From: a virus
IMG/VR virus record: IMGVR_UViG_3300042308_000168
Span: 110,500-174,499 of that record
Length of the DNA: 64,000 nucleotides
Strand: one strand, 5' to 3'
The notes beneath the pieces were generated by a model, which was given only the letters and a program-made list of their open reading frames with translations, had not been told where the DNA came from and did not search any database. Every line of letters begins with the position of its first letter. The first letter of the stretch is position 1. Below, piece after piece: positions 13,292 to 52,542 of the stretch. Position numbers and translations under genes: made by a program.

Positions 13292-13842
13292 GCGGATTTC
13301 CAGTTCATTTCATCGGTGCATTAAGAATGTGTGGTGCTTTAACCACACCAGGTCCTGGCAACCCAATGAATGTGTTTGTTGAGGGTAAGCCTGTTGCGGT
13401 AGCTGGTGATTTAAATACACACAATAATCTAGGTGCTTTGCTATCTCTATCACCGGGTAATGTCTTGGTCGGAGGTGTCCCTCTTGTCGTTTCTTTGTTA
13501 GATCAAGGATCACCAGATGTTCAAGGCATTATACCTCATGTAACTGGTCTGCCAACACCTGCCGAAGGTTCGGGTGTTGTAAAGGCGTATGGGATGCTTA
13601 GTAGCACCCTTGGCATGATGGGTGGTGGTAAAGGTAACAAAAATGGCAGAATGGATACAGGAGAAAATGTATTAGCTGGAGGCCAGAAGGTAGGTGATAT
13701 CTACCGTGTAGTTGATGGTGGTGGTGCTGGTTTCGATGTTCTAGTTTTGGCTAATGTATCGAATACCGTTGTTAATGGTTCCTCAGTCACCGGTGAAACA
13801 TCAGGTAACACTTTTACATTTTCCACCTACTATTCCACTTGA
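13288..13842 (+). CDS. PAAR-like tail-tip protein
   Basis: 184 aa, ATGA overlap with dut. The N-terminal half PGPGNPMNVFVEGKPVAVAG and GNVLVGGVPLVV follows the repeated PAAR pattern that forms the sharp cap on a tail-spike trimer (compare T4 gp5.4). The C-terminal Gly/Thr/Ser-rich region may be another beta-strand tip domain. A structural protein within replication genes is out of place but T4-like genomes show similar scattering. Confidence 0.7.
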   Translation: MSGFPVHFIGALRMCGALTTPGPGNPMNVFVEGKPVAVAGDLNTHNNLGALLSLSPGNVLVGGVPLVVSLLDQGSPDVQGIIPHVTGLPTPAEGSGVVKAYGMLSSTLGMMGGGKGNKNGRMDTGENVLAGGQKVGDIYRVVDGGGAGFDVLVLANVSNTVVNGSSVTGETSGNTFTFSTYYST

Positions 13843-13868
13843 CAATCACCCGATGTTTACTATATAAT
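13839..13868 (+). promoter_or_regulatory. sigma70-like promoter of hsp20
   Basis: TTGACA 13839-13844, 18-bp spacer, TATAAT 13863-13868; predicted transcription start near 13875, just at the first leader hairpin. The -35 overlaps the stop codon of the PAAR gene. Confidence 0.8.
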
Positions 13869-13872
13869 GTAT

Positions 13873-13925
13873 GATGATAGCCGAAAGGTATCGTCTTTTA
13901 TAATCTCGCTGAAAAGGAGAAACAC
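13873..13925 (+). ncRNA. ROSE-like RNA thermometer in the hsp20 leader
   Basis: Hairpin I: 13873-13882 with 13887-13895, bulged G13880, GAAA loop. Hairpin II: TCTCGCT (13904-13910), GAAA loop (13911-13914), AGGAGA (13915-13920), with G13908 bulged. The strand UCGCU opposite Shine-Dalgarno AGGA fits the UYGCU consensus of ROSE elements, which mask the ribosome site of small heat-shock genes in rhizobia and melt on heating. The start codon is at 13926. Confidence 0.75.
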
Positions 13926-14468
13926 ATGGAAACTTTCAAGAAATTCAATACCGATAACTTTGGTATTCCTGATTCGCTATCCCGTCAATTTATCGGCTTT
14001 GATGCCATTCTAGATACTTTGCGCCGTTCTAATGAACAATTGGCAAAGGCATCTAATTACCCTCCATACAATATCAAAAAGATTGATGATGAACATTTTG
14101 TGATCGAAATGGCTGTTGCTGGTTTCGGCAAGCAGAACCTTGATATTGAATTGAAGGAAGGTGAACTAACTATTACTGGTTCACATGAAGCCGAGGAAAA
14201 CGATTACATCTATCAAGGCATTGCAAATCGTGCCTTTACTCGCAAGTTCACTCTTGCTGACACTGTTGTTGTAAAAAATGCGGAGTTGGTCAATGGTCTA
14301 CTTAAAATCGCTCTTGAACGCTATATTCCCGAGGAGAAGAAGGCTAAGAAAATCGATATCTTGGATCCGTTCGGCGTCGGGGAGACGACGAGGCAGCTTC
14401 TCAACGAGGGTACGAAAGCGTGGGCGGATGGCGTCCAGAAGATTGCGGACTCGCTAACACCTAAGTGA
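13926..14468 (+). CDS. small heat-shock protein, Hsp20 family
   Basis: 180 aa. The alpha-crystallin domain (about 45-140) is clear: FVIEMAVAGFGKQNLDIELK, LTITGSHE, GIANRAFTRKFTLADTVVV and NGLLKIALERYIPEEKK. These ATP-independent chaperones hold unfolding proteins; T4-like cyanophages also carry hsp20. It has its own promoter and a ROSE-like leader. The last ~34 codons (from DPFGVGETTRQ) are distinctly GC-rich compared with the rest, as if that tail had a different origin. Confidence 0.93.
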   Translation: METFKKFNTDNFGIPDSLSRQFIGFDAILDTLRRSNEQLAKASNYPPYNIKKIDDEHFVIEMAVAGFGKQNLDIELKEGELTITGSHEAEENDYIYQGIANRAFTRKFTLADTVVVKNAELVNGLLKIALERYIPEEKKAKKIDILDPFGVGETTRQLLNEGTKAWADGVQKIADSLTPK

Positions 14469-15861: not shown

Positions 15862-16784
15862 TCATCGGCGGGGCATCAAACTACGATTACGAAAAGCTAC
15901 AATACTGGGTTAACTCAATCAAGCAAACCGAGTTCTCAGGTGATATCGTTATCTGTGCTACCAACATTACAAAAGAAACAATCGATAAGCTATCTAAGAA
16001 GAATGTTACCGTGTATGCTTATGGTGTACCAGATGGTAATGGTGGATTTAAGAGTGAGACACGCCTAGCGCCACATGTTGAAAGATTTTTCTATCTATGG
16101 GGTTTTCTAAACGAGCATCGTGAAAACTATAGATATGTTGTGGTAACTGATACAAGGGATGTTATCTTTCAGACAAACCCTTCTGACTTTCTCCTTGAGA
16201 ATCTAAAGGTAACAAACTCTCTAATCTGTTCATCCGAAGGCCTTCTATATAAAGATGAGCCATGGGGTGATAAGAACCTGCTTGACACCTTCGGGCCTTT
16301 CTTTCATAATATCTATCGTGAAGAAATGATTTACAATGTAGGAACGATTGCAGGTATGTCAGAAGATGTTGCCGCTCTATTGCTCATGATCTTCCAGCTA
16401 TCTATCAACCGTCATACACCGATTGTCGATCAGGCAGTGTTTAACTTCATTGTTAATCAGTTACCTTACAGTGCAGAGATTCAGAAATCGACAAACGAAG
16501 ATGGTTGGGCTATTCAGTTAGGTACAATTCGCAAGGCTGTTGAGGCAGGCTTTGGTGAAATTGGACAGAGAGCAAAGACTGATCCTAAGCAGCTAGAGCA
16601 GTATGATAAGAACTACCGTGATGTTCAGCCTGTGATCAATGATCATATTGTCGCCACACCAAAGGGTGATAAGTATTGTATTGTTCACCAGTGGGATCGA
16701 GTTCCTGAACTGAAAGAAAAAGTTTTAAAGTTTTATGGTGATGAAGCTGGTGAAGGAGTCATATCATTTCAGACAAGCAACTAA
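15846..16784 (+). CDS. putative GT-A glycosyltransferase
   Basis: 312 aa, overlapping the previous gene by 16 bases. LIIGGASNYDYEKLQYWVNS, YRYVVVTDTRDVIFQ (acidic metal site) and the IYNVGTIAGMSEDVAALL and VDQAVFNFI segments match nucleotide-diphospho-sugar transferases that read polysaccharide or protein acceptors. Ends within the start region of the fucosyltransferase gene. Confidence 0.7.
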   Translation: MEKDLIIGGASNYDYEKLQYWVNSIKQTEFSGDIVICATNITKETIDKLSKKNVTVYAYGVPDGNGGFKSETRLAPHVERFFYLWGFLNEHRENYRYVVVTDTRDVIFQTNPSDFLLENLKVTNSLICSSEGLLYKDEPWGDKNLLDTFGPFFHNIYREEMIYNVGTIAGMSEDVAALLLMIFQLSINRHTPIVDQAVFNFIVNQLPYSAEIQKSTNEDGWAIQLGTIRKAVEAGFGEIGQRAKTDPKQLEQYDKNYRDVQPVINDHIVATPKGDKYCIVHQWDRVPELKEKVLKFYGDEAGEGVISFQTSN

Positions 16785-29932: not shown

Positions 29933-30703
29933 ATGAGCGTTGTAAATCAATCGGCGAAAGCCGTGGCTACCGGCGTTAATGAGGTCGTTGACCTTAGGGG
30001 TATGTGGATCGGCCTAGCCCTTCTAAATACCTTTTATCTAATAGTCCGTATTTATGAACAAGTATATGGTTGGCGTGCCGGCCTTGACTCGTTCGCACCA
30101 GAGTTCCAGACATACTGGATGAGTATCCTCTGGACAGAAATTCCACTAGAATTGGTTTCAGGTCTTGCACTAGCAGGTTACCTATGGAAGACAAGAGACC
30201 GTGACCTCGCAAGCCTCTCACCTCGTGAAGAAATGCGTCGTCTAACTGTATTAGTTCAGTGGTTGGTTGTTTATGCTGTTGCTATCTATTGGGGTGCAAG
30301 TTTCTTCACCGAACAAGATGGTACCTGGCATATGACAGTCATTCGTGATACCGACTTCACTCCGTCACATATCATTGAGTTCTACATGAGTTATCCAATC
30401 TATTCAATCATCGCTGTTGGTGCGTTCTTCTATGCGAAGACCCGTATTCCTTACTTCGCACAGGGATATAGCCTTGCGTTCCTGATTGTTGCTATTGGTC
30501 CATTCATGATTATTCCAAACGTTGGGCTCAATGAGTGGGGTCATACATTCTGGTTTATGGAAGAGCTATTTGTGGCACCGCTACATTGGGGCTTCGTATT
30601 CTTTGGATGGATGGCACTAGGTGTCTTTGGTGTTGTGCTACAGATCCTAGGACGTGTTCATTCTCTAGTTGGTAAGGAAGGCGTTGCTCTCCTAACCGAG
30701 TAA
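29933..30703 (+). CDS. pmoC: particulate methane monooxygenase subunit C
   Basis: 256 aa, the normal length of PmoC/AmoC. Five to six membrane helices. EQDGTWHMTVIRDTDFTPSH carries the three metal ligands of PmoC: Asp129, His133 and His146 here, with the D-x3-H-x12-H spacing of Methylococcus Asp156, His160 and His173. IIPNVGLNEWGHTFWFMEEL and APLHWGFVFFGW are also highly conserved. PmoC is the membrane subunit that, with PmoA and PmoB, oxidises methane to methanol (AmoC acts likewise on ammonia). No pmoA or pmoB is present, so it would act by joining host subunits. It has its own leader and a strong terminator and stands alone. Confidence 0.97.
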   Translation: MSVVNQSAKAVATGVNEVVDLRGMWIGLALLNTFYLIVRIYEQVYGWRAGLDSFAPEFQTYWMSILWTEIPLELVSGLALAGYLWKTRDRDLASLSPREEMRRLTVLVQWLVVYAVAIYWGASFFTEQDGTWHMTVIRDTDFTPSHIIEFYMSYPIYSIIAVGAFFYAKTRIPYFAQGYSLAFLIVAIGPFMIIPNVGLNEWGHTFWFMEELFVAPLHWGFVFFGWMALGVFGVVLQILGRVHSLVGKEGVALLTE

Positions 30704-44101: not shown

Positions 44102-44178
44102 GGTTCCGTAGTTCAACTGGATAGAGCATCCGCCTTCTAAGCGGGTTGTTGAAGGTTCGAGTCCTTCCGGGACCGCCA
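44102..44178 (+). tRNA. tRNA-Arg(TCT)
   Basis: Acceptor GGTTCCG/CGGGACC, anticodon loop CTTCTAA with anticodon TCT, T-loop TTCGAGT, encoded CCA. Reads AGA/AGG, rare in GC-rich hosts. Confidence 0.95.
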
Positions 44179-44196
44179 TTATATAAGGATGTGAAA

Positions 44197-44397
44197 GTGA
44201 GTCAGAAACTAGACGATATTCTTGCTATTGGTACTGTTGCTGGATTCTTTACCGTGGGTGCAGCACTAGCACTAGGTTGGATCTTCAATGTCATGGCTAT
44301 CTGGCATAGCATTGACAATCCTATCACGGCAAAGTTTATCCTTCGCTGTATCGGTATCTTTGTATTACCAATCGGTGGTATTCTGGGATATCTGTAA
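44197..44397 (+). CDS. 66-aa two-helix membrane protein, GTG start
   Basis: GTG 44197 follows AAGGATGTGAAA. ILAIGTVAGFFTVGAALALG and FILRCIGIFVLPIGGILGYL are two membrane helices. Lies between tRNA genes. Function unknown. Confidence 0.6.
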   Translation: MSQKLDDILAIGTVAGFFTVGAALALGWIFNVMAIWHSIDNPITAKFILRCIGIFVLPIGGILGYL

Positions 44398-44402
44398 CAT
44401 GT

Positions 44403-44493
44403 GGGGGTGGGTGTAAGACACAAGAGGGACTTATAAACCCTTTAGCGGCCGATTACCGTTCTCGACCAGGAGCGTTACCTGGCACCCCTACCA
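44403..44493 (+). tRNA. atypical class II tRNA-like gene, apparent anticodon TAT
   Basis: Acceptor GGGGGTG/CACCCCT (G1-T72), A73 and encoded CCA, T-stem CCAGG/CCTGG, long variable arm and anticodon loop CTTATAA (TAT, reads AUA), but the closing 31-39 pair is A-A. T-loop AGCGTTA and a 3-nt D-loop lack the usual tertiary-contact bases. Could be a degenerate Tyr/Leu tRNA instead. Confidence 0.6.
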
Positions 44494-44508
44494 AATTTGG
44501 AGACTGAA

Positions 44509-44691
44509 ATGGAAGATAAGTTTTACCCACTGTTTGAGTGCTACATTTCTGGGCAAATGTCCGAAAGACAGTGGCAGGAACATCTTACGAATGATGTTGG
44601 ACTTAAAGAGTGGTTTGAAAATTTCAAGAAGGAACGAAAGGCTGCTATGGAACAAAAGCAGCGGGAATACTACGATACAGTCCTAAAGTAA
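44509..44691 (+). CDS. 60-aa charged helical protein
   Basis: Start 44509 after TTGGAG. FYPLFECYISGQMSERQWQE and LKEWFENFKKERKAAMEQKQ; soluble, helical. Phage proteins of this kind (xxYxxGQMSERQWxxH) recur between tRNA genes; function unknown. Confidence 0.65.
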   Translation: MEDKFYPLFECYISGQMSERQWQEHLTNDVGLKEWFENFKKERKAAMEQKQREYYDTVLK

Positions 44692-44763
44692 ATGTAAACA
44701 GTCTATCCAGTCTATAGACTAAGGGTGCGTCAAATTGTCGCACAAAAAATGTAAAAAAAGTTC

Positions 44764-44792
44764 TTGACTATGCGTTTTGTTGCCTATATAGT
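44764..44792 (+). promoter_or_regulatory. sigma70-like promoter
   Basis: TTGACT 44764-44769, 17 bp, TATAGT 44787-44792; drives the 60-aa gene at 44823 and the main tRNA block. A GTGCG/CGCAC hairpin (about 44726-44743) just upstream resembles the pmoC terminator but lacks a T-run. Confidence 0.75.
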
Positions 44793-44822
44793 ATGTGAAC
44801 GATTGAGAGAAGAGGTTACGGC

Positions 44823-45005
44823 ATGAAAGAGGAAACCGTAAAGCGTAGCGCCTACTGGATAGTAGAAGCCATTGACAAGTCTGGCAAGACGGTGTATAAT
44901 GGCACATTCCTTGACTTCGAAAAGGCATGGAGCAAATACTATTCATTCAAAAATAAGGCTACTGTTTCCTTGCAACGCAAGTTCAAGGAGAGTAAGATAG
45001 CCTGA
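44823..45005 (+). CDS. 60-aa hypothetical protein
   Basis: Leader GAGAGAAGAGG then ATG. SAYWIVEAIDKSGKTVYNGT and AWSKYYSFKNKATVSLQRK; small alpha/beta protein, basic C-terminus. Unrecognised. Confidence 0.62.
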   Translation: MKEETVKRSAYWIVEAIDKSGKTVYNGTFLDFEKAWSKYYSFKNKATVSLQRKFKESKIA

Positions 45006-45047
45006 TGCTGTTTGACAATTGAATCTGGCTATAGTAATATAGTAATT

Positions 45048-45122
45048 GGGCTGCGGGTCGGATGATAAGGCACAGGACTGCAAATCCTTGAGGACTCGGT
45101 TTGATTCCGAGGCAGCCCTCCA
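45048..45122 (+). tRNA. tRNA-Cys(GCA)
   Basis: Acceptor GGGCTGC/GCAGCCC, anticodon loop CTGCAAA, T-loop TTTGATT, T73 and encoded CCA. Its last A begins the 20-bp inverted repeat that follows. Confidence 0.9.
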
Positions 45123-45276
45123 TTACTATTACGCCAACGGATTAGATTGCGGTTCGAAACGTTGACAGTAACACGGTTGCAATTGATCCGGAGCAAGTTC
45201 GATTCTTGCATAAAATTGGCTGAACGGTGATAGGAGAGCCTATCGGTTATCTCTAGTCCGTTGGCGTAATAGTAAT
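45122..45276 (+). ncRNA. 155-nt element closed by a 20-bp perfect inverted repeat
   Basis: 45122-45141 (ATTACTATTACGCCAACGGA) is exactly complementary to 45257-45276. Inside are a tRNA T-arm-like hairpin (GCAAG-TTCGATT-CTTGC, about 45194-45210), a 6-bp hairpin GATAGG/CCTATC (about 45229-45244) and ATTGC/GCAAT. The core GCCAA can also pair with TTGGC at about 45217. The 10-mer ATAGTAATAT flanks the tRNA-Cys plus element on both sides (45031, 45269). No ORF. Confidence 0.7.
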
Positions 45277-45278
45277 AT

Positions 45279-45356
45279 TCGGCGGTAGCACTCTAGGTGA
45301 GTGCGCTCGGCTGTTAACCGAGAATGAGGTTGGTTCGAATCCAACCCGCCGAGCCA
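45279..45356 (+). tRNA. tRNA-Asn(GTT)
   Basis: Acceptor TCGGCGG/CCGCCGA, anticodon loop CTGTTAA, T-arm GTTGG-TTCGAAT-CCAAC, G73, CCA encoded. Confidence 0.93.
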
Positions 45357-45360
45357 ATAC

Positions 45361-45435
45361 GGCCCCTTCGTCTATCGGTTAGGACACGAGACTTTCAATC
45401 TTGTAAGAGGAGTTCGATTCTCCTAGGGGTCACCA
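45361..45435 (+). tRNA. tRNA-Glu(TTC)
   Basis: Acceptor GGCCCCT/AGGGGTC, anticodon loop CTTTCAA, T-loop TTCGATT, CCA encoded. Confidence 0.94.
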
Positions 45436-45440
45436 ATTAT

Positions 45441-45516
45441 GGACCTGTAACTCAATTGGTAGAGTAGCGGACTCTTAATCCGTGTGTTGAAGGTTCGATT
45501 CCTTCCAGGTTCACCA
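45441..45516 (+). tRNA. tRNA-Lys(CTT)
   Basis: Acceptor GGACCTG/CAGGTTC, anticodon loop CTCTTAA, T-loop TTCGATT, A73, CCA encoded. Confidence 0.94.
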
Positions 45517-45523
45517 ATACAAT

Positions 45524-45599
45524 GGATCCATAGCTCAATTGGCAGAGCAGGGGACTTTTAATCCCAAGGTTGTCGGATCGTGGCCGACTGGATCCTCCA
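45524..45599 (+). tRNA. tRNA-Lys(TTT)
   Basis: Acceptor GGATCCA/TGGATCC, anticodon loop CTTTTAA; T-loop ATCGTGG has A54 and T58 instead of T54/A58. CCA encoded. Confidence 0.92.
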
Positions 45600-45603
45600 A
45601 TAT

Positions 45604-45678
45604 GCGGGTGTAACTCAGTGGTAGAGTCACAGTCTTCCAAACTGTTGGTCGTCAGTTCGATTCTGATCACCCGCTCCA
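45604..45678 (+). tRNA. tRNA-Gly(TCC)
   Basis: Acceptor GCGGGTG/CACCCGC, anticodon loop CTTCCAA, T-loop TTCGATT, T73, CCA encoded. Confidence 0.94.
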
Positions 45679-45682
45679 ATAT

Positions 45683-45763
45683 CACCACGTATCCCCCTCG
45701 GCTACGAACCGAGAGTAAGGTAACTGGATGTAAATAGAGGTTCGACTCCTCTCGTGGTGGCCA
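45683..45763 (+). tRNA. tRNA-Arg(ACG)-like, no recognisable D-arm
   Basis: Acceptor CACCACG/CGTGGTG, anticodon arm CTCGG-CTACGAA-CCGAG (ACG) and T-arm AGAGG-TTCGACT-CCTCT are perfect, with G73 and CCA. Only 7 nt (TATCCCC) separate acceptor and anticodon arm, where a D-arm should be, while 22 nt occupy the variable region. Confidence 0.7.
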
Positions 45764-45769
45764 TATAAT

Positions 45770-45844
45770 GCTGGTAGGTCGGCAAGATGTCGAGGAGTCC
45801 TCATAAGGCTTTAAAGGTTGGTTTGATCCCAACTATCAGCACCA
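45770..45844 (+). tRNA. tRNA with CAT anticodon (Met or Ile2)
   Basis: Acceptor GCTGGTA/TATCAGC, anticodon loop CTCATAA, T-arm GTTGG-TTTGATC-CCAAC, A73, CCA. D-loop lacks a clear GG. CAT may be Met, or Ile reading AUA if C34 becomes lysidine. Confidence 0.85.
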
Positions 45845-45961
45845 ACATGAAGGACGGTACTCGGGTAATGCGAGACCTGAGGAGAACATGCTTTTGGTTC
45901 GCACATTAGCATTAAGTATCCACATATAACCGTGGAGCGTTTCTTCTACTTACAAGTTTTT
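45845..45961 (+). other. 117-nt inter-tRNA spacer with small hairpins
   Basis: No ORF and no tRNA fold. Visible helices: CTCG/CGAG (about 45860-45874) and CCAC/GTGG (about 45920-45935); GGTACT (about 45856) can pair with AGTATC (about 45914). Function unknown. Confidence 0.4.
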
Positions 45962-46037
45962 AGCGGTCAGGTGGTCCGGAGACCATTCTTGTCTCATAAG
46001 CAAGAGAGCCGTTGTTCGACTCATGGGTCCGCATCCA
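45962..46037 (+). tRNA. divergent tRNA-like gene with CAT anticodon
   Basis: Correct length and encoded CCA; anticodon arm CTTGT-CTCATAA-GCAAG is good and the T-loop is TTCGACT. Acceptor (GCGG with CCGC) has an A-A at 1-72 and a T-T mismatch, and the T-stem is weak. Possible initiator-like, Ile2-like or decaying tRNA. Confidence 0.5.
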
Positions 46038-46042
46038 AGTTT

Positions 46043-46116
46043 ATCAGTGAAGTGTTACGGTAGCACATCTGTCTCCAAAACAGAGGGCGAGGGTTCGACT
46101 CCTTCCACTGGTGCCA
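46043..46116 (+). tRNA. tRNA-Trp(CCA)
   Basis: Acceptor ATCAGTG/CACTGGT, anticodon loop CTCCAAA, T-arm GAGGG-TTCGACT-CCTTC, G73, CCA encoded. Confidence 0.92.
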
Positions 46117-46123
46117 TTATAAT

Positions 46124-46199
46124 CTAGGTGTAGCTCAATTGGCAGAGCATCCCGTTTGGGGCGGGAAGGTTGTTGGTTCAAGTCCAGCTACCTAGACCA
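46124..46199 (+). tRNA. tRNA-Pro(TGG)
   Basis: Acceptor CTAGGTG/TACCTAG, anticodon loop TTTGGGG, T-loop TTCAAGT, A73, CCA encoded. Confidence 0.93.
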
Positions 46200-46218
46200 T
46201 TTAGAAAGGTGACTAGAT

Positions 46219-46332
46219 ATGAGTAGAGAACAGTTAAAACTACAGGCTATTATTCGCCTTTCTTTGTTCTTCGCTATCGCTGTTGTGATAGGGTTTATTG
46301 TAAGTGATATTAATATTCTATTAAGTCAGTGA
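46219..46332 (+). CDS. 37-aa membrane peptide within the tRNA array
   Basis: AAAGGTGA lies upstream. Basic N-terminus then LSLFFAIAVVIGFIVSDINI as one membrane helix. Eight bases before the next ORF. Function unknown. Confidence 0.5.
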   Translation: MSREQLKLQAIIRLSLFFAIAVVIGFIVSDINILLSQ

Positions 46333-46339
46333 GGACAAT

Positions 46340-46498
46340 ATGTTTAAGATTACAGAAGAAACAAAAGCAGCAGCAATTGAGGCAATGCGTGAAGTCCTTA
46401 AAAAGGATGGGGCGTGCGATACTCATTTGACAGACGAAGTTATCGGTAATGCGTTTGATGTTGCTGTTGATATTGTAAAGAAGCAGTTTGGTATGTAA
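46340..46498 (+). CDS. 52-aa helical protein within the tRNA array
   Basis: GAGGACA ribosome site. TEETKAAAIEAMREVLKKDG and VIGNAFDVAVDIVKKQFG are helices. Ends 8 bases before tRNA-Ser. Function unknown. Confidence 0.5.
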   Translation: MFKITEETKAAAIEAMREVLKKDGACDTHLTDEVIGNAFDVAVDIVKKQFGM

Positions 46499-46506
46499 GA
46501 ATACCT

Positions 46507-46596
46507 GGAGAGTTGGCTGAGTGGTCGAAAGCGGCCGTTTGCTAAATGGTTGAGCCTTAGTCGGCTCCATAGGTTCGAATCCTATACTCTCCGCCA
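46507..46596 (+). tRNA. tRNA-Ser(GCT)
   Basis: Class II. Acceptor GGAGAGT/ACTCTCC, anticodon loop TTGCTAA, long variable arm, T-loop TTCGAAT, G73, CCA encoded. Confidence 0.93.
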
Positions 46597-46601
46597 GAAT
46601 T

Positions 46602-46685
46602 GGAGGATAGCGTTCATGGTGAGCAATCGGTCTTGAAAACCGAGCCCCCGCAAGGGTGATGGTTCGATTCCTTTATCCTCCGCCA
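46602..46685 (+). tRNA. tRNA-Ser(TGA)
   Basis: Class II. Acceptor GGAGGAT/ATCCTCC, anticodon loop CTTGAAA, variable arm CCCCCGCAAGGG, T-loop TTCGATT, CCA encoded. Confidence 0.93.
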
Positions 46686-46831
46686 GAGACTTCATATGTG
46701 ATCTATCACTAGGAGCATATGAGCCGTTGGACGAAGATAGCGTCACGAACGGATGGGGACACTCTAGTAAGTTTTGTGTCTGATACAGGACGAAAGCAAA
46801 TGGTTGGGGTCACTGTATCATTAGAATTTAT
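46686..46831 (+). ncRNA. inter-tRNA region with four stacked hairpins
   Basis: Helices in order: CATATG/CATATG enclosing GTGAT/ATCAC (about 46692-46720), CCGTT/AACGG enclosing GACG/CGTC (about 46723-46751), GACAC/GTGTC (about 46758-46780) and GATACAG/CTGTATC (about 46782-46819). Dense pairing over the whole spacer suggests a structured RNA. No ORF, no tRNA fold. Confidence 0.5.
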
Positions 46832-46906
46832 GCGGGCTTAGTTCAGAGGTAGAACATCGGTGTTACATACCGAGTGTCGGTGGTTCGATCCCATCAGTCC
46901 GCACCA
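46832..46906 (+). tRNA. tRNA-Val(TAC)
   Basis: Acceptor GCGGGCT/AGTCCGC, anticodon loop GTTACAT, T-loop TTCGATC, A73, CCA encoded. Confidence 0.93.
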
Positions 46907-46910
46907 ATAC

Positions 46911-46987
46911 GCCCCTCTAGCCCAACTGGTAGAGGTGTCTGACTTAGAATCAGAAGGTTCTCAGTTCGAATCTGAGGAGGGGCACCA
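46911..46987 (+). tRNA. tRNA-Leu(TAG), short variable arm
   Basis: Acceptor GCCCCTC/GAGGGGC, anticodon loop CTTAGAA, T-loop TTCGAAT, A73, CCA. Variable region is only about 5 nt, whereas bacterial tRNA-Leu normally is class II. Confidence 0.88.
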
Positions 46988-47054
46988 ATAGTCAGAGGGA
47001 TTGTAGGTAGACCTGTTTGCGTCGGACTGGGTTGTAACCTTCATAAAGTTTAAA

Positions 47055-47129
47055 GGCCCGTGAGTCAGCAGGTGTGGACTCTAGCCTGTCACGCTAGGGA
47101 GAGGGGATCGATACCCCTACGGGTCGCCA
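47055..47129 (+). tRNA. tRNA-Asp(GTC)
   Basis: Acceptor GGCCCGT/ACGGGTC, anticodon loop CTGTCAC, T-loop ATCGATA with A54, G73, CCA encoded. Confidence 0.92.
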
Positions 47130-47135
47130 TTTAAC

Positions 47136-47211
47136 GGGCGTATAGCTCAACTGGGAGAGCAACTCCTTTGCACGGAGAAGGTTGGGGGTTCAAGTCCTCT
47201 TACGTCCACCA
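47136..47211 (+). tRNA. tRNA-Ala(TGC)
   Basis: Acceptor GGGCGTA/TACGTCC, anticodon loop TTTGCAC, T-loop TTCAAGT, A73, CCA encoded. Confidence 0.92.
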
Positions 47212-47213
47212 AG

Positions 47214-47340
47214 TTTTGTGAGGCAGTATCGATATCACGGATGAGCAGAATTGCCACATCGAGGTCGGGAGACGGTGCGAGGCTGTCGTAACCTTGGGAA
47301 CCCGGATACTGAAAAGAGGATGCATACTCGTTCCTCACAA
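47214..47340 (+). ncRNA. 127-nt inter-tRNA RNA with closed terminal stem
   Basis: TTTGTGAGG (about 47215) pairs with CCTCACAAA (about 47332), immediately followed inside by CAGTATC/GATACTG (7 bp). Internal hairpins GATG/CATC and GACGG/CTGTC. The nested order suggests a multibranched RNA; no CCA, so not a tRNA. Confidence 0.5.
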
Positions 47341-47349
47341 ATAGTTTAT

Positions 47350-47424
47350 GCTTCGTTCGTCTATTGGCTAGGACACTCGCCTCTCAAGCGGGAAAGATGG
47401 GATCGATACCCATACGAAGCACCA
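47350..47424 (+). tRNA. tRNA-Glu(CTC)
   Basis: Acceptor GCTTCGT/ACGAAGC, anticodon loop CTCTCAA, T-loop ATCGATA with A54, CCA encoded. Second Glu isoacceptor. Confidence 0.91.
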
Positions 47425-47429
47425 ATTAT

Positions 47430-47505
47430 GCGTCTCTGGTGTAGGTGATCCGCACGACGGTTTGAAGCACCGTAGGACTTAGTTTGATTCTAAGGGGACG
47501 CACCA
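47430..47505 (+). tRNA. tRNA-Phe(GAA)
   Basis: Acceptor GCGTCTC/GGGACGC, anticodon loop TTGAAGC, T-arm CTTAG-TTTGATT-CTAAG, A73, CCA encoded. Confidence 0.91.
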
Positions 47506-47506
47506 T

Positions 47507-47583
47507 GCCCTCGTAGCCCAATTGGCAGAGGCAGTTGATTCAAACCCAACTTAGTGTCAGTTCGAATCTGACCGAGGGCACCA
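47507..47583 (+). tRNA. tRNA-Leu(CAA), short variable arm
   Basis: Acceptor GCCCTCG/CGAGGGC, anticodon loop TTCAAAC (A31-C39 mismatch), T-loop TTCGAAT, CCA. Variable region about 4-5 nt; D-arm nearly identical to tRNA-Leu(TAG). Confidence 0.85.
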
Positions 47584-47589
47584 ATTCAT

Positions 47590-47663
47590 GCTGGGGTAGT
47601 GTAATGGAAGCACCTGGGTTTGTGGAGCCCAGAGCCTAGGATCGATACCTAGTCCCAGTACCA
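47590..47663 (+). tRNA. tRNA-His(GTG)
   Basis: Acceptor GCTGGGG/TCCCAGT (G1-T72), anticodon loop TTGTGGA, T-loop ATCGATA with A54, A73, CCA. No obvious G-1:C73 pair in the DNA. Confidence 0.88.
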
Positions 47664-47668
47664 TATTC

Positions 47669-47742
47669 GCTTCTGTAGTTCAAAGGTAGAACAGGGTCTT
47701 GGTAAGACTCAGACCTCGGATCGTTACCGGGCAGAAGCACCA
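47669..47742 (+). tRNA. tRNA-Thr(GGT)
   Basis: Acceptor GCTTCTG/CAGAAGC, anticodon loop TTGGTAA, T-loop ATCGTTA (A54, T58), A73, CCA encoded. Confidence 0.91.
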
Positions 47743-47747
47743 GTTAC

Positions 47748-47821
47748 GCCGGTTTAGTATAATGGCATTACAGTAGTTTCGTAATCTTCTGATAGGGGTT
47801 CGATTCCTCTAACCGGCACCA
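47748..47821 (+). tRNA. tRNA-Thr(CGT)
   Basis: Acceptor GCCGGTT/AACCGGC, T-loop TTCGATT, CCA encoded. Anticodon arm CAGTAG/CTTCTG has a T-T mismatch and a 9-nt loop centred on CGT. Confidence 0.82.
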
Positions 47822-47825
47822 TTAC

Positions 47826-47854
47826 TTGACATTCCGTTTTCGGTGTGTTATTAT
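47826..47854 (+). promoter_or_regulatory. sigma70-like promoter, TTGACATTCCGTTT type
   Basis: TTGACA 47826-47831, 17 bp, TATTAT 47849-47854; TTCCGTTT (47832-47839) is complementary to AAACGGAA (47873-47880) beside the start codon of the next gene. Confidence 0.82.
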
Positions 47855-47883
47855 TAGACATAATGAGAAAGGAAACGGAACTA

Positions 47884-48360
47884 ATGAAAAAGCTTTGGGT
47901 ATTTGATATCGATAACACTCTGGCAAATGTGCATCACCGTTGGGATCATCTACGGAACGGTAACAAGAATTGGGATGAGTTCTTTGCTGCACAAGATAAG
48001 GATACACCTTATCAGGCAGTTCTAGATGTTCTCCATGCTCTTGCATTTGACCGTGGTAAGATGCTAGGTGATAAGATTATCGTTGTGACTGGTCGTGATG
48101 AGCGTTTTCGTGAAGTCTCTTTAGAATGGCTTCGTCGTCATATCGATTATCCGTTTGAGAATGAAGACCTATATATGCGTCCCGGTGGTAACCGTGAAGA
48201 CGATGACAAGTTGAAGGTTCACATTATCAAGGATTGGCTTGCTGCTAATCCTGAATATAAAGTCGGTGCTATCTTTGAAGATCGTCACCGTATCATCGAT
48301 GCTTTTCGTGCCGAAGGTTGGTATACCTTTGAGTGCAATCAGGAGCGTCTAGAGTATTGA
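47884..48360 (+). CDS. HAD-family phosphatase, PseT-phosphatase-like
   Basis: 158 aa. WVFDIDNTLAN (motif I DxDxT), IIVVTGRDERFRE (motif II), DLYMRPGGNREDDDKLK (motif III Lys) and GAIFEDRHRIIDAFRAEG (motif IV) match HAD phosphatases of the polynucleotide-kinase 3'-phosphatase type. In T4, PseT phosphatase repairs tRNA ends cut by host anticodon nucleases; here it lies inside the tRNA array without a kinase domain, suggesting RNA or nucleotide phosphatase activity. Confidence 0.78.
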   Translation: MKKLWVFDIDNTLANVHHRWDHLRNGNKNWDEFFAAQDKDTPYQAVLDVLHALAFDRGKMLGDKIIVVTGRDERFREVSLEWLRRHIDYPFENEDLYMRPGGNREDDDKLKVHIIKDWLAANPEYKVGAIFEDRHRIIDAFRAEGWYTFECNQERLEY

Positions 48361-48366
48361 GTTTAT

Positions 48367-48440
48367 TGTTCCGTAGCTCAAAGGTAGAGCAATGTGCTGA
48401 TAACACATAGACACTGGATCGTTACCAGTCGGAACAACCA
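48367..48440 (+). tRNA. tRNA-Ile(GAT)
   Basis: Acceptor TGTTCCG/CGGAACA, anticodon loop CTGATAA, T-loop ATCGTTA (A54, T58), A73, CCA encoded. Confidence 0.92.
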
Positions 48441-48441
48441 T

Positions 48442-48527
48442 GGGGGACTATTTGGCTAAGGACGCCAAGGGGTCTGTAAAACCCAAGCCTATGTGCTGGC
48501 CCGGATCGTTACCGGGGTCCCCTACCA
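48442..48527 (+). tRNA. tRNA-Tyr(GTA)
   Basis: Class II. Acceptor GGGGGAC/GTCCCCT, anticodon loop CTGTAAA, long variable arm, T-loop ATCGTTA (A54, T58), A73, CCA encoded. Confidence 0.92.
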
Positions 48528-48535
48528 CTTCTTAT

Positions 48536-48611
48536 TCGGGGTTAGTTCAATTGGCAGAACGGCAGACTTTGAATCTGCATGTTGGTGGTTCGAGACCATC
48601 ACCCCGATCCA
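48536..48611 (+). tRNA. tRNA-Gln(TTG)
   Basis: Acceptor TCGGGGT/ACCCCGA, anticodon loop CTTTGAA, T-loop TTCGAGA, T73, CCA encoded. Confidence 0.93.
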
Positions 48612-48618
48612 TTCTTGT

Positions 48619-48693
48619 TCAGGATTAGTTTAACTGGTAAAACTCCGGACTCTGACTCCGGCATTCGAGGTTCGAATCCTTGATCCTGAACCA
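48619..48693 (+). tRNA. tRNA-Gln(CTG)
   Basis: Acceptor TCAGGAT/ATCCTGA, anticodon loop CTCTGAC, T-loop TTCGAAT, A73, CCA encoded. Last tRNA of the array. Confidence 0.92.
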
Positions 48694-50994: not shown

Positions 50995-52542
50995 ATGAAG
51001 TTTTTAGGGATTAGAAATCATCATGATACAAACATTACATACACAGATGGCACGAAAGTAAAATACCTAAAGCTAGAAAGAAACTTACAAGAAAAACACT
51101 ACTGCTATTACAACTACGAAGAAATTGTAGCGGAAGAGTTTGATATTATCTTTAGAAAGAGCAAGGAACTTTTGGGCGTAGATTTTCGCTCATTAGACGC
51201 CATTGCTCTTTCTCTCGTTTATCCAGACAATGTGTTTAAGTTTCAGCCGTTTGTTCATGTCAATGAATTGTATCAGAAGTTAGATAAGAAGAAATATCCT
51301 TTCTGGGATCAGTTCTCTTGTCCTGTCTATAATCTAGATCACCACTATGCCCATGCACTAAGCTGTTGGCCTCTTATTGAGGATGCCAATAGCATTGTGA
51401 TTGATGGCATGGGTTCTCATAAGCGTTTCTTTTCTGCATTTAAGAATAACGACCTTGTTGATTATGTCGATATTACCGAGTGCGATAGTTTCTCATTGTT
51501 GATGAATGTTATTGGTGAGCAAATGGGCATGAAGGGTATCATCATCGATCATGCCGGCAAACTCATGGCTCTTAAGGCGTATCATAAACTTGATGATGTG
51601 TTTATCAAGCGAGTGTTTGATTATGCCAAGTATATGAAATACAGAAACATGCATTCGTTTCTTGAACTTGTAGAAGCCTTGCAAGAGAAGAATGGACAGA
51701 ATGTCAAAGACAAGCAGGCACTAATCGATAAGACATATCTTGTTCATGAGTTTATGAATAGAAAGTTGCCGGACTATATCGGTCAGTTTGTTGATGATAA
51801 TGAGGTCTTTACATATTCAGGCGGTACGGCACAAAACACGGTTGTCAATACTGTGCTTAAGAGCCGTTATAAGAACATGATCATTCCACCACATTGTCCT
51901 GATGATGGCATTAGTTTGGGTTGTGTAGAGTTTCTTAGAAGAAAATATAAGCAACCTTCTTTTGAGAAGAAAAACTTTCCATTCTGGCAATCTGACGAAG
52001 ATGGCGGAGTGCCCAATGATGTGACTATTGATCGGGCTGCCGAATTACTTGCACAAGGTAAGATTGTTGGTTGGTATCAAGGTAATGGTGAGATTGGTCC
52101 AAGAGCATTGGGCAATCGTTCTATTCTCATGGACCCAACAATCAAGCGTGGCAAAGATGTTATCAATAACAAGGTGAAACATCGTGAGCCGTATCGTCCA
52201 TTCGGTGCATCTATCTTGCTTGGTGATGTTAGTAGAGTATTTCAGTGGCACGATGAAAGTCCTTACATGCTATATAATGCCAAGTGCAGAGAACCAAAAC
52301 GATATTCATCTATTGTTCATGTTGATGGATCATGCCGCATACAAACGGTAAATCAAGAGCATGAACATTTCTACCGTCTGATTGATTCCTTTAAGCGCAA
52401 GACAGGCATTCCTACCGTTCTCAATACCTCATTAAACATTGACGGTAAGCCAATTGCTGCATATAAACAAGATGCTAAAACATTGTTTGAAAAGACAGAA
52501 ATGGATGCGGTAATCATTGGTAACGATATCTTGACAAAGTGA
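50995..52542 (+). CDS. NodU/CmcH-family O-carbamoyltransferase
   Basis: 515 aa. FLGIRNHHDTNITY, NLDHHYAHALSCWPLIEDAN and SIVIDGMGSH form the Kae1-like ATPase domain, and the C-terminal half GWYQGNGEIGPRALGNRSIL plus MDP, HREPYRPFGASIL and PTVLNTSLNIDGKP is the carbamoyltransferase signature. These enzymes move a carbamoyl group from carbamoyl phosphate via carbamoyl-AMP onto sugar hydroxyls (nod factors, antibiotics). Here it might decorate a phage-made sugar or base. Confidence 0.92.
   Translation: MKFLGIRNHHDTNITYTDGTKVKYLKLERNLQEKHYCYYNYEEIVAEEFDIIFRKSKELLGVDFRSLDAIALSLVYPDNVFKFQPFVHVNELYQKLDKKKYPFWDQFSCPVYNLDHHYAHALSCWPLIEDANSIVIDGMGSHKRFFSAFKNNDLVDYVDITECDSFSLLMNVIGEQMGMKGIIIDHAGKLMALKAYHKLDDVFIKRVFDYAKYMKYRNMHSFLELVEALQEKNGQNVKDKQALIDKTYLVHEFMNRKLPDYIGQFVDDNEVFTYSGGTAQNTVVNTVLKSRYKNMIIPPHCPDDGISLGCVEFLRRKYKQPSFEKKNFPFWQSDEDGGVPNDVTIDRAAELLAQGKIVGWYQGNGEIGPRALGNRSILMDPTIKRGKDVINNKVKHREPYRPFGASILLGDVSRVFQWHDESPYMLYNAKCREPKRYSSIVHVDGSCRIQTVNQEHEHFYRLIDSFKRKTGIPTVLNTSLNIDGKPIAAYKQDAKTLFEKTEMDAVIIGNDILTK

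Follow-up and report, generated by a model that had tools for sequence, protein, structure and literature searches.

The 53-nt predicted 5′ untranslated region (UTR) of a phage hsp20 gene is very likely a short two-hairpin ROSE-like RNA thermometer, a reading in which the thermal response is carried over from validated homologs. The gene lies in a 64-kb window (the whole stretch of DNA that we analysed) contained in a 174.5-kb phage record with the T4-type genes gp44, regA, uvsX and gp23. The leader element is not peculiar to this phage; nearly all of the phage hsp20 leaders examined have it, so a heat sensor of this sort is probably built into many bacterial viruses.

The hsp20 gene (13926..14468, plus strand) encodes an IbpA-type small heat-shock protein of 180 aa that was recognised by a PF00011 match in its own genome; among NCBIfam models IbpA fits it best, with 131 bits, below the 212-bit equivalog cut-off. 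Upstream lies a putative sigma-70-type promoter, TTGACA-N18-TATAAT (13839..13868, plus strand), that matches the consensus at 12 of 12 positions, and both boxes also occur in the leaders of close relatives with a variable spacer between them. The predicted transcription start falls at about 13873, and since the promoter is directly upstream of the hairpins, the predicted UTR corresponds almost exactly to the two hairpins.

The initial annotation had described two hairpins here, and both are present in the minimum-free-energy fold. Hairpin I (13873..13895, plus strand) is GAUGAUA-(G)-CC-GAAA-GG-UAUCGUC, with a 7-bp stem, a bulged G at 13880 and a GAAA loop; hairpin II (13905..13921, plus strand) is UCUC-(G)-CU-GAAA-AG-GAGA and covers the Shine-Dalgarno (SD) sequence AGGAGA (13916..13921, plus strand), which forms its 3′ arm. 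The AUG at 13926 falls outside both. In each hairpin a single G bulges from the 5′ strand, and two further base pairs lead from it to the GAAA loop. The ROSE-type architecture that had been claimed, i.e. UYGCU against AGGA with a bulged G ahead of a small heat-shock gene, is borne out: in the 3′-most hairpin UCGCU pairs against AGGA, the bulged G sits inside the anti-SD/SD helix at a position kept across homologs, and the leader adjoins hsp20. The two hairpins and the size of the predicted UTR also agree with ROSE elements, which have two to four hairpins and UTRs from about 60 to more than 100 nt, the length here being slightly under 60 nt; leader-model matches in relatives are about 52 to 70 nt long.

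Taken alone, the window leader is close to what chance would give: the z-score of its fold is -1.33, 18 of 200 shuffled sequences fold as well, and the core motif TYGCTNNNNAGGA occurs 2 times in the 64 kb against 1.17 expected. The unremarkable fold speaks for a chance hairpin over a strong SD, and the leader also gives a weak match to the SAM-V riboswitch (19.6 bits, E 1.2), although this is far under the 41-bit gathering score; we consider either reading, a SAM-V-like riboswitch or a chance hairpin, extremely improbable. With the single-sequence evidence near chance level, it is the comparison with homologs that decides.

Homologs were collected by their Hsp20 protein, blind to the leader, and comprise 80 IMG/VR loci plus named phages, mostly Kyanoviridae. 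The same leader layout is found among them even though protein identity drops to about 30-50%. A hairpin II descriptor (at least 3 outer pairs, a single bulged G, a C-G pair and one more pair, a loop of 3-8 and an SD of GGAG or GGTG) is matched by 67 of 70 distinct phage hsp20 leaders versus 0 of 157 other SD-bearing leaders on the same contigs; the descriptor was composed after viewing the leaders, so the weight rests on the control count. A chance hairpin does not yield these numbers, nor the covariation described below, and together they rule it out, which the single sequence could not do. Hairpin I with the GCC..GG apex and bulged G is present in 53 of the 70 leaders and altered in the other 17. 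The carriers include lytic T4-like phages of methanotrophs, cyanobacteria and SAR11, among others. In S-TIM5 (L083) the SD and its partner strand are altered together, giving CCAC-G-CUU against AAGGUGG, and DSL-LC02 (L087) uses a different pairing register.

Several loci depart from the common form. In one leader (L050) the SD reads UGGAG and the anti-SD strand has changed to match (GCA against UGG), a compensation within hairpin II that arose naturally. A subgroup (L034, L036, L038-L042, L045 and L048) has gained an extra inner pair (CUA/UAG) in hairpin II and has a hairpin I without the bulged-G GCC..GG apex, from which it follows that the two hairpins evolve separately. Four others (L071, L073, L074 and L075) replace hairpin I with a long, G+C-rich, terminator-like hairpin and a T run, which lead directly into the ROSE-type SD hairpin; a second layer of control by attenuation is possible there. 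Prochlorococcus phage P-SSM2 has a manA RNA (Rfam, 181 bits; L089 554-751) two genes upstream of its hsp20.

Covariation in homologous phage leaders, which the initial annotation had named as a test, is clearly present. A covariance model built solely from 16 window-type leaders (R1) also picks out, at the start of hsp20, the leaders of phages that are more distantly related, and a second model (R2), built from phage leaders only, was used to align 50 phage leaders. In this alignment 94.8% of cells pair, both sides change in 152 cells, where shuffles give 42, and covariation scores 0.53 as against 0.15 for shuffles and at most 0.105 with slid arms. Because the structure guided the alignment, these figures are biased in its favour; a smaller R1-fitted set agrees. 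MAFFT alignments of mixed leaders (A2 and A3) put hairpin I or the SD one base off and were left out of the counts. Most of the covariation comes from hairpin I, which covaries at 8 of its 9 pairs, and from the outer pair of hairpin II, which is UA, CG or AU; the pair beside the bulge is CG or UG, and almost no variation is seen in the core pairs of hairpin II, as expected for an SD that is fixed by the ribosome.

Searches of whole genomes with R2 point to one gene. Of 17 complete genomes of named phages, 14 gave the hsp20 leader as a match, as did all 7 IMG/VR records; just two weaker matches fell elsewhere in the virus genomes searched, and the genome that contains the window gave no other match at E up to 1. 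At one locus (L057, 3485-3532) a second, weaker leader-model match (18 bits) lies directly downstream of hsp20. An R1 match on the minus strand of L012 at 4192 and a ROSE_3 match in G016 at 16612 are inside or antisense to other ORFs and were taken as chance. The structure of the element is shown by comparison, and its conservation, its covariation and its specificity for hsp20 are shown as well.

R2 also finds proteobacterial hsp20 leaders (SAR86, PS1, other alpha- and gammaproteobacteria, and Burkholderiales) with E-values down to 6e-9, and covariation is equally strong in these bacterial leaders. Class-wide samples of bacterial genomes searched with R2 gave 6 of 190 and 5 of 185, which is not an estimate of prevalence since the strict filters lose weak matches; five of these new matches adjoin hsp20. 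These bacterial leaders bear on a further reading, in which a RegA-type translational repressor of the phage would act on the element as its operator; regA is just upstream of hsp20 in the window and near it in many cyanophages. We judge such an operator very unlikely: the same element precedes bacterial hsp20 genes, it is present before the hsp20 of HTVC115P with no regA annotated in the neighbourhood displayed, and it is absent before other phage genes (none of the 157 control leaders).

A search of the window leader with the Rfam ROSE models, as the initial annotation had proposed, gave a mixed result. RF02523 (ROSE_3) does not match the window leader itself; it does match homologous phage leaders at the correct place, with all scores under the 43-bit gathering score. 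The best of these is the hsp20 leader of Methylophilales phage Melnitz-2 (L093; 34.1 bits, E 6.8e-6 in an all-family scan), and the hsp20 leaders of phages C48C1 and S-SKS1 (L086 and L094 in our set) are matched too, as are, more weakly, other leaders that include a close relative of the window phage (L017). As a control, 17 bacterial hsp20 loci were scanned, and these likewise gave no Rfam family, ROSE included, at the gathering score, which indicates that the curated threshold is strict. As the ROSE_3 gathering score is not reached, we name the element ROSE-like and do not file it in RF02523; it is a short ROSE-like element of the kind shown experimentally in Pseudomonas ibpA, where two-hairpin ROSE elements of 61-62 nt are experimentally shown thermometers (PMC3669281). 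In the Pseudomonas elements it is hairpin II that melts, with hairpin I remaining folded, and when the bulged G is deleted the SD is locked (PMC3669281).

From these validated homologs we infer that the SD would be sequestered, and released by heat, in the cell. Transcription would start at the gene's own sigma-70 promoter; as long as the temperature is normal, hairpin II would pair the SD AGGAG with the YUYGCU strand around the bulged G and keep translation low. With a stability of about -5 kcal/mol at 37 °C the hairpin is weak, and warming would open it to ribosomes. Hairpin I would stay folded at the 5′ end, where its role may lie in folding, in stabilising the mRNA or in binding protein. 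For the window leader, nearest-neighbour folding computes an SD accessibility of 0.02 at 20 °C, a level as low as which just 2 of 40 other window genes reach, and of just 0.06-0.07 at 42 °C; control genes rise by as much. The validated thermometer of E. coli ibpA has the same computed curve (0.04 to 0.11), and the calculation therefore agrees with a thermometer without proving one. We rejected in silico melting as proof, since it does not discriminate between the validated ibpA and control genes that rise as much.

A translational operator bound by protein would look similar to a thermometer. The leader could be mainly a binding site for the phage's own Hsp20, with autoregulation as for E. coli IbpA, which binds its own 5′ UTR via R93, R97, K98 and the aromatic residue at position 34 and represses translation (PMC10474464). 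Free Hsp20 would bind both bulged-G hairpins and repress translation, and aggregated protein would titrate it away; heat melting would be secondary or coupled. This reading is compatible with a thermometer. The window Hsp20 retains Y34, R93, R97 and K98 of E. coli IbpA, with R102 of the phage protein as the counterpart of R93. Among 39 phage Hsp20s, position 34 is aromatic in all 39, 37 have R and 2 have K in the place of R93, and position 97 is R or K in 36. The bulged G and CC/GG of hairpin I, kept in the 53 leaders noted above, are not needed for the melting of hairpin II alone. Against this, K98 is found in 13 of the 39 and is not conserved, K could not replace R93 in E. coli IbpA, the arginine may serve the alpha-crystallin fold instead, and hairpin I is altered in the remaining 17 leaders. 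We regard a leader that serves mainly Hsp20 binding as possible rather than probable. Equally tentative is a combination of the two, in which one proteobacterial module, an IbpA-type chaperone with a two-hairpin ROSE leader, would sense both heat and free chaperone, having been captured by T4-like phages and kept through host jumps that include cyanobacteria.

As to where the thermometer came from, the initial annotation had left open capture or convergence. Capture is favoured over convergence, since proteobacterial hsp20 leaders are recovered by a model that was built on those of phages, and since Hsp20 is IbpA-like; on this basis hsp20 would have been captured together with its leader from Proteobacteria and the element retained across hsp20-carrying T4-like phages. 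In the Hsp20 tree the freshwater and cyanophage clades fall among proteobacterial sequences, with deep branches that give no count of captures; its bacterial sequences were retrieved by a phage profile and include no Hsp20 from cyanobacteria, which leaves room for other sources.

The further suggestion that the element supports an alphaproteobacterial host does not stand: it is also found in phages of Synechococcus, Prochlorococcus, Pelagibacter and Methylophilales, and it thus says nothing on this point. Independent of the element, the window contains a stand-alone pmoC gene (methane monooxygenase subunit C; 29933-30703, PF04896), the product of which is 88% identical to its best PDB PmoC chain, 3rfr, and scores 516 bits with 3rfr versus 346 bits with 1yew. 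We take 3rfr to be PmoC from Methylocystis, an alphaproteobacterium, and 1yew to be the Methylococcus chain; pmoC then suggests that the window phage infects a Methylocystis-like alphaproteobacterial methanotroph. Elsewhere in the window are a large cluster of 25 tRNA genes (44102-48693) and, near it, a Nol-like carbamoyltransferase gene (phrog_1601, 50995-52542). By gene content the window phage is a pmoC-phage in the sense of PMC7674155, where HSP20 is reported in all but three pmoC-phages; the gene, also described as a cyanophage core gene, is found in nearly all pmoC-phages (PMC7674155).

The claim that ROSE had no earlier description in a phage agrees with the literature searched, in which we found no earlier report. 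A search for RNA thermometers with cyanophage or hsp20, in a corpus that has subscription papers and preprints largely outside its coverage, returned nothing relevant, and the cyanophage sHSP papers searched have no passage on a thermometer or the untranslated leader. No ROSE element is among the phage thermometers reported, which are those of lambda cIII, SPbeta blyA and a sigma-70 gene (PMC11182007). The hsp20 leader thus appears to be a known kind of element in a new setting, with unusually broad conservation, and it suggests that translation of phage hsp20 is controlled by temperature and possibly by its own product. If capture of a dual sensor is true, no phage RNA thermometer known would be more widespread, and it would let lytic phages make chaperone on demand when infection or heat yields unfolded protein.

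Comparison with known systems places the phage leader closest to ibpA elements. Like Pseudomonas ibpA ROSE (RF02523; PMC3669281), it has two hairpins in a 5′ UTR of about 60 nt before a small heat-shock gene, with UYGCU paired to the SD around a bulged G; unlike it, the leader belongs to a phage gene, the promoter is sigma-70-like and not sigma-32, and the UTR is a predicted 53 nt. It shares with the Rfam ROSE_3 consensus a bulged G in both hairpins and GCC..GG in hairpin I, and differs in the lower stability of hairpin II (-4.9 versus -7.9 kcal/mol at 37 °C) and in a window-leader score below Rfam thresholds. The E. coli ibpA ROSE has the same SD hairpin (UCUCGCUGAUUUCAGGAG) and an upstream bulged-G hairpin in the form GCC-UGAU-GG; unlike the phage leader, it has an additional hairpin between the two and a UTR about twice as long, and R2 ranks the ibpB and ibpA leaders first in the E. 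coli locus with weak E-values of 0.07 and 0.4. As with lambda cIII, SPbeta blyA (a fourU element) and the sigma-70 gene of a gut Caudoviricetes phage (PMC11182007, PMC10586365), translation of a phage gene would be under temperature control. Those elements are fourU or alternative conformations on other genes, none of them hsp20, and were found singly, whereas the hsp20 element is conserved over many phage genera.
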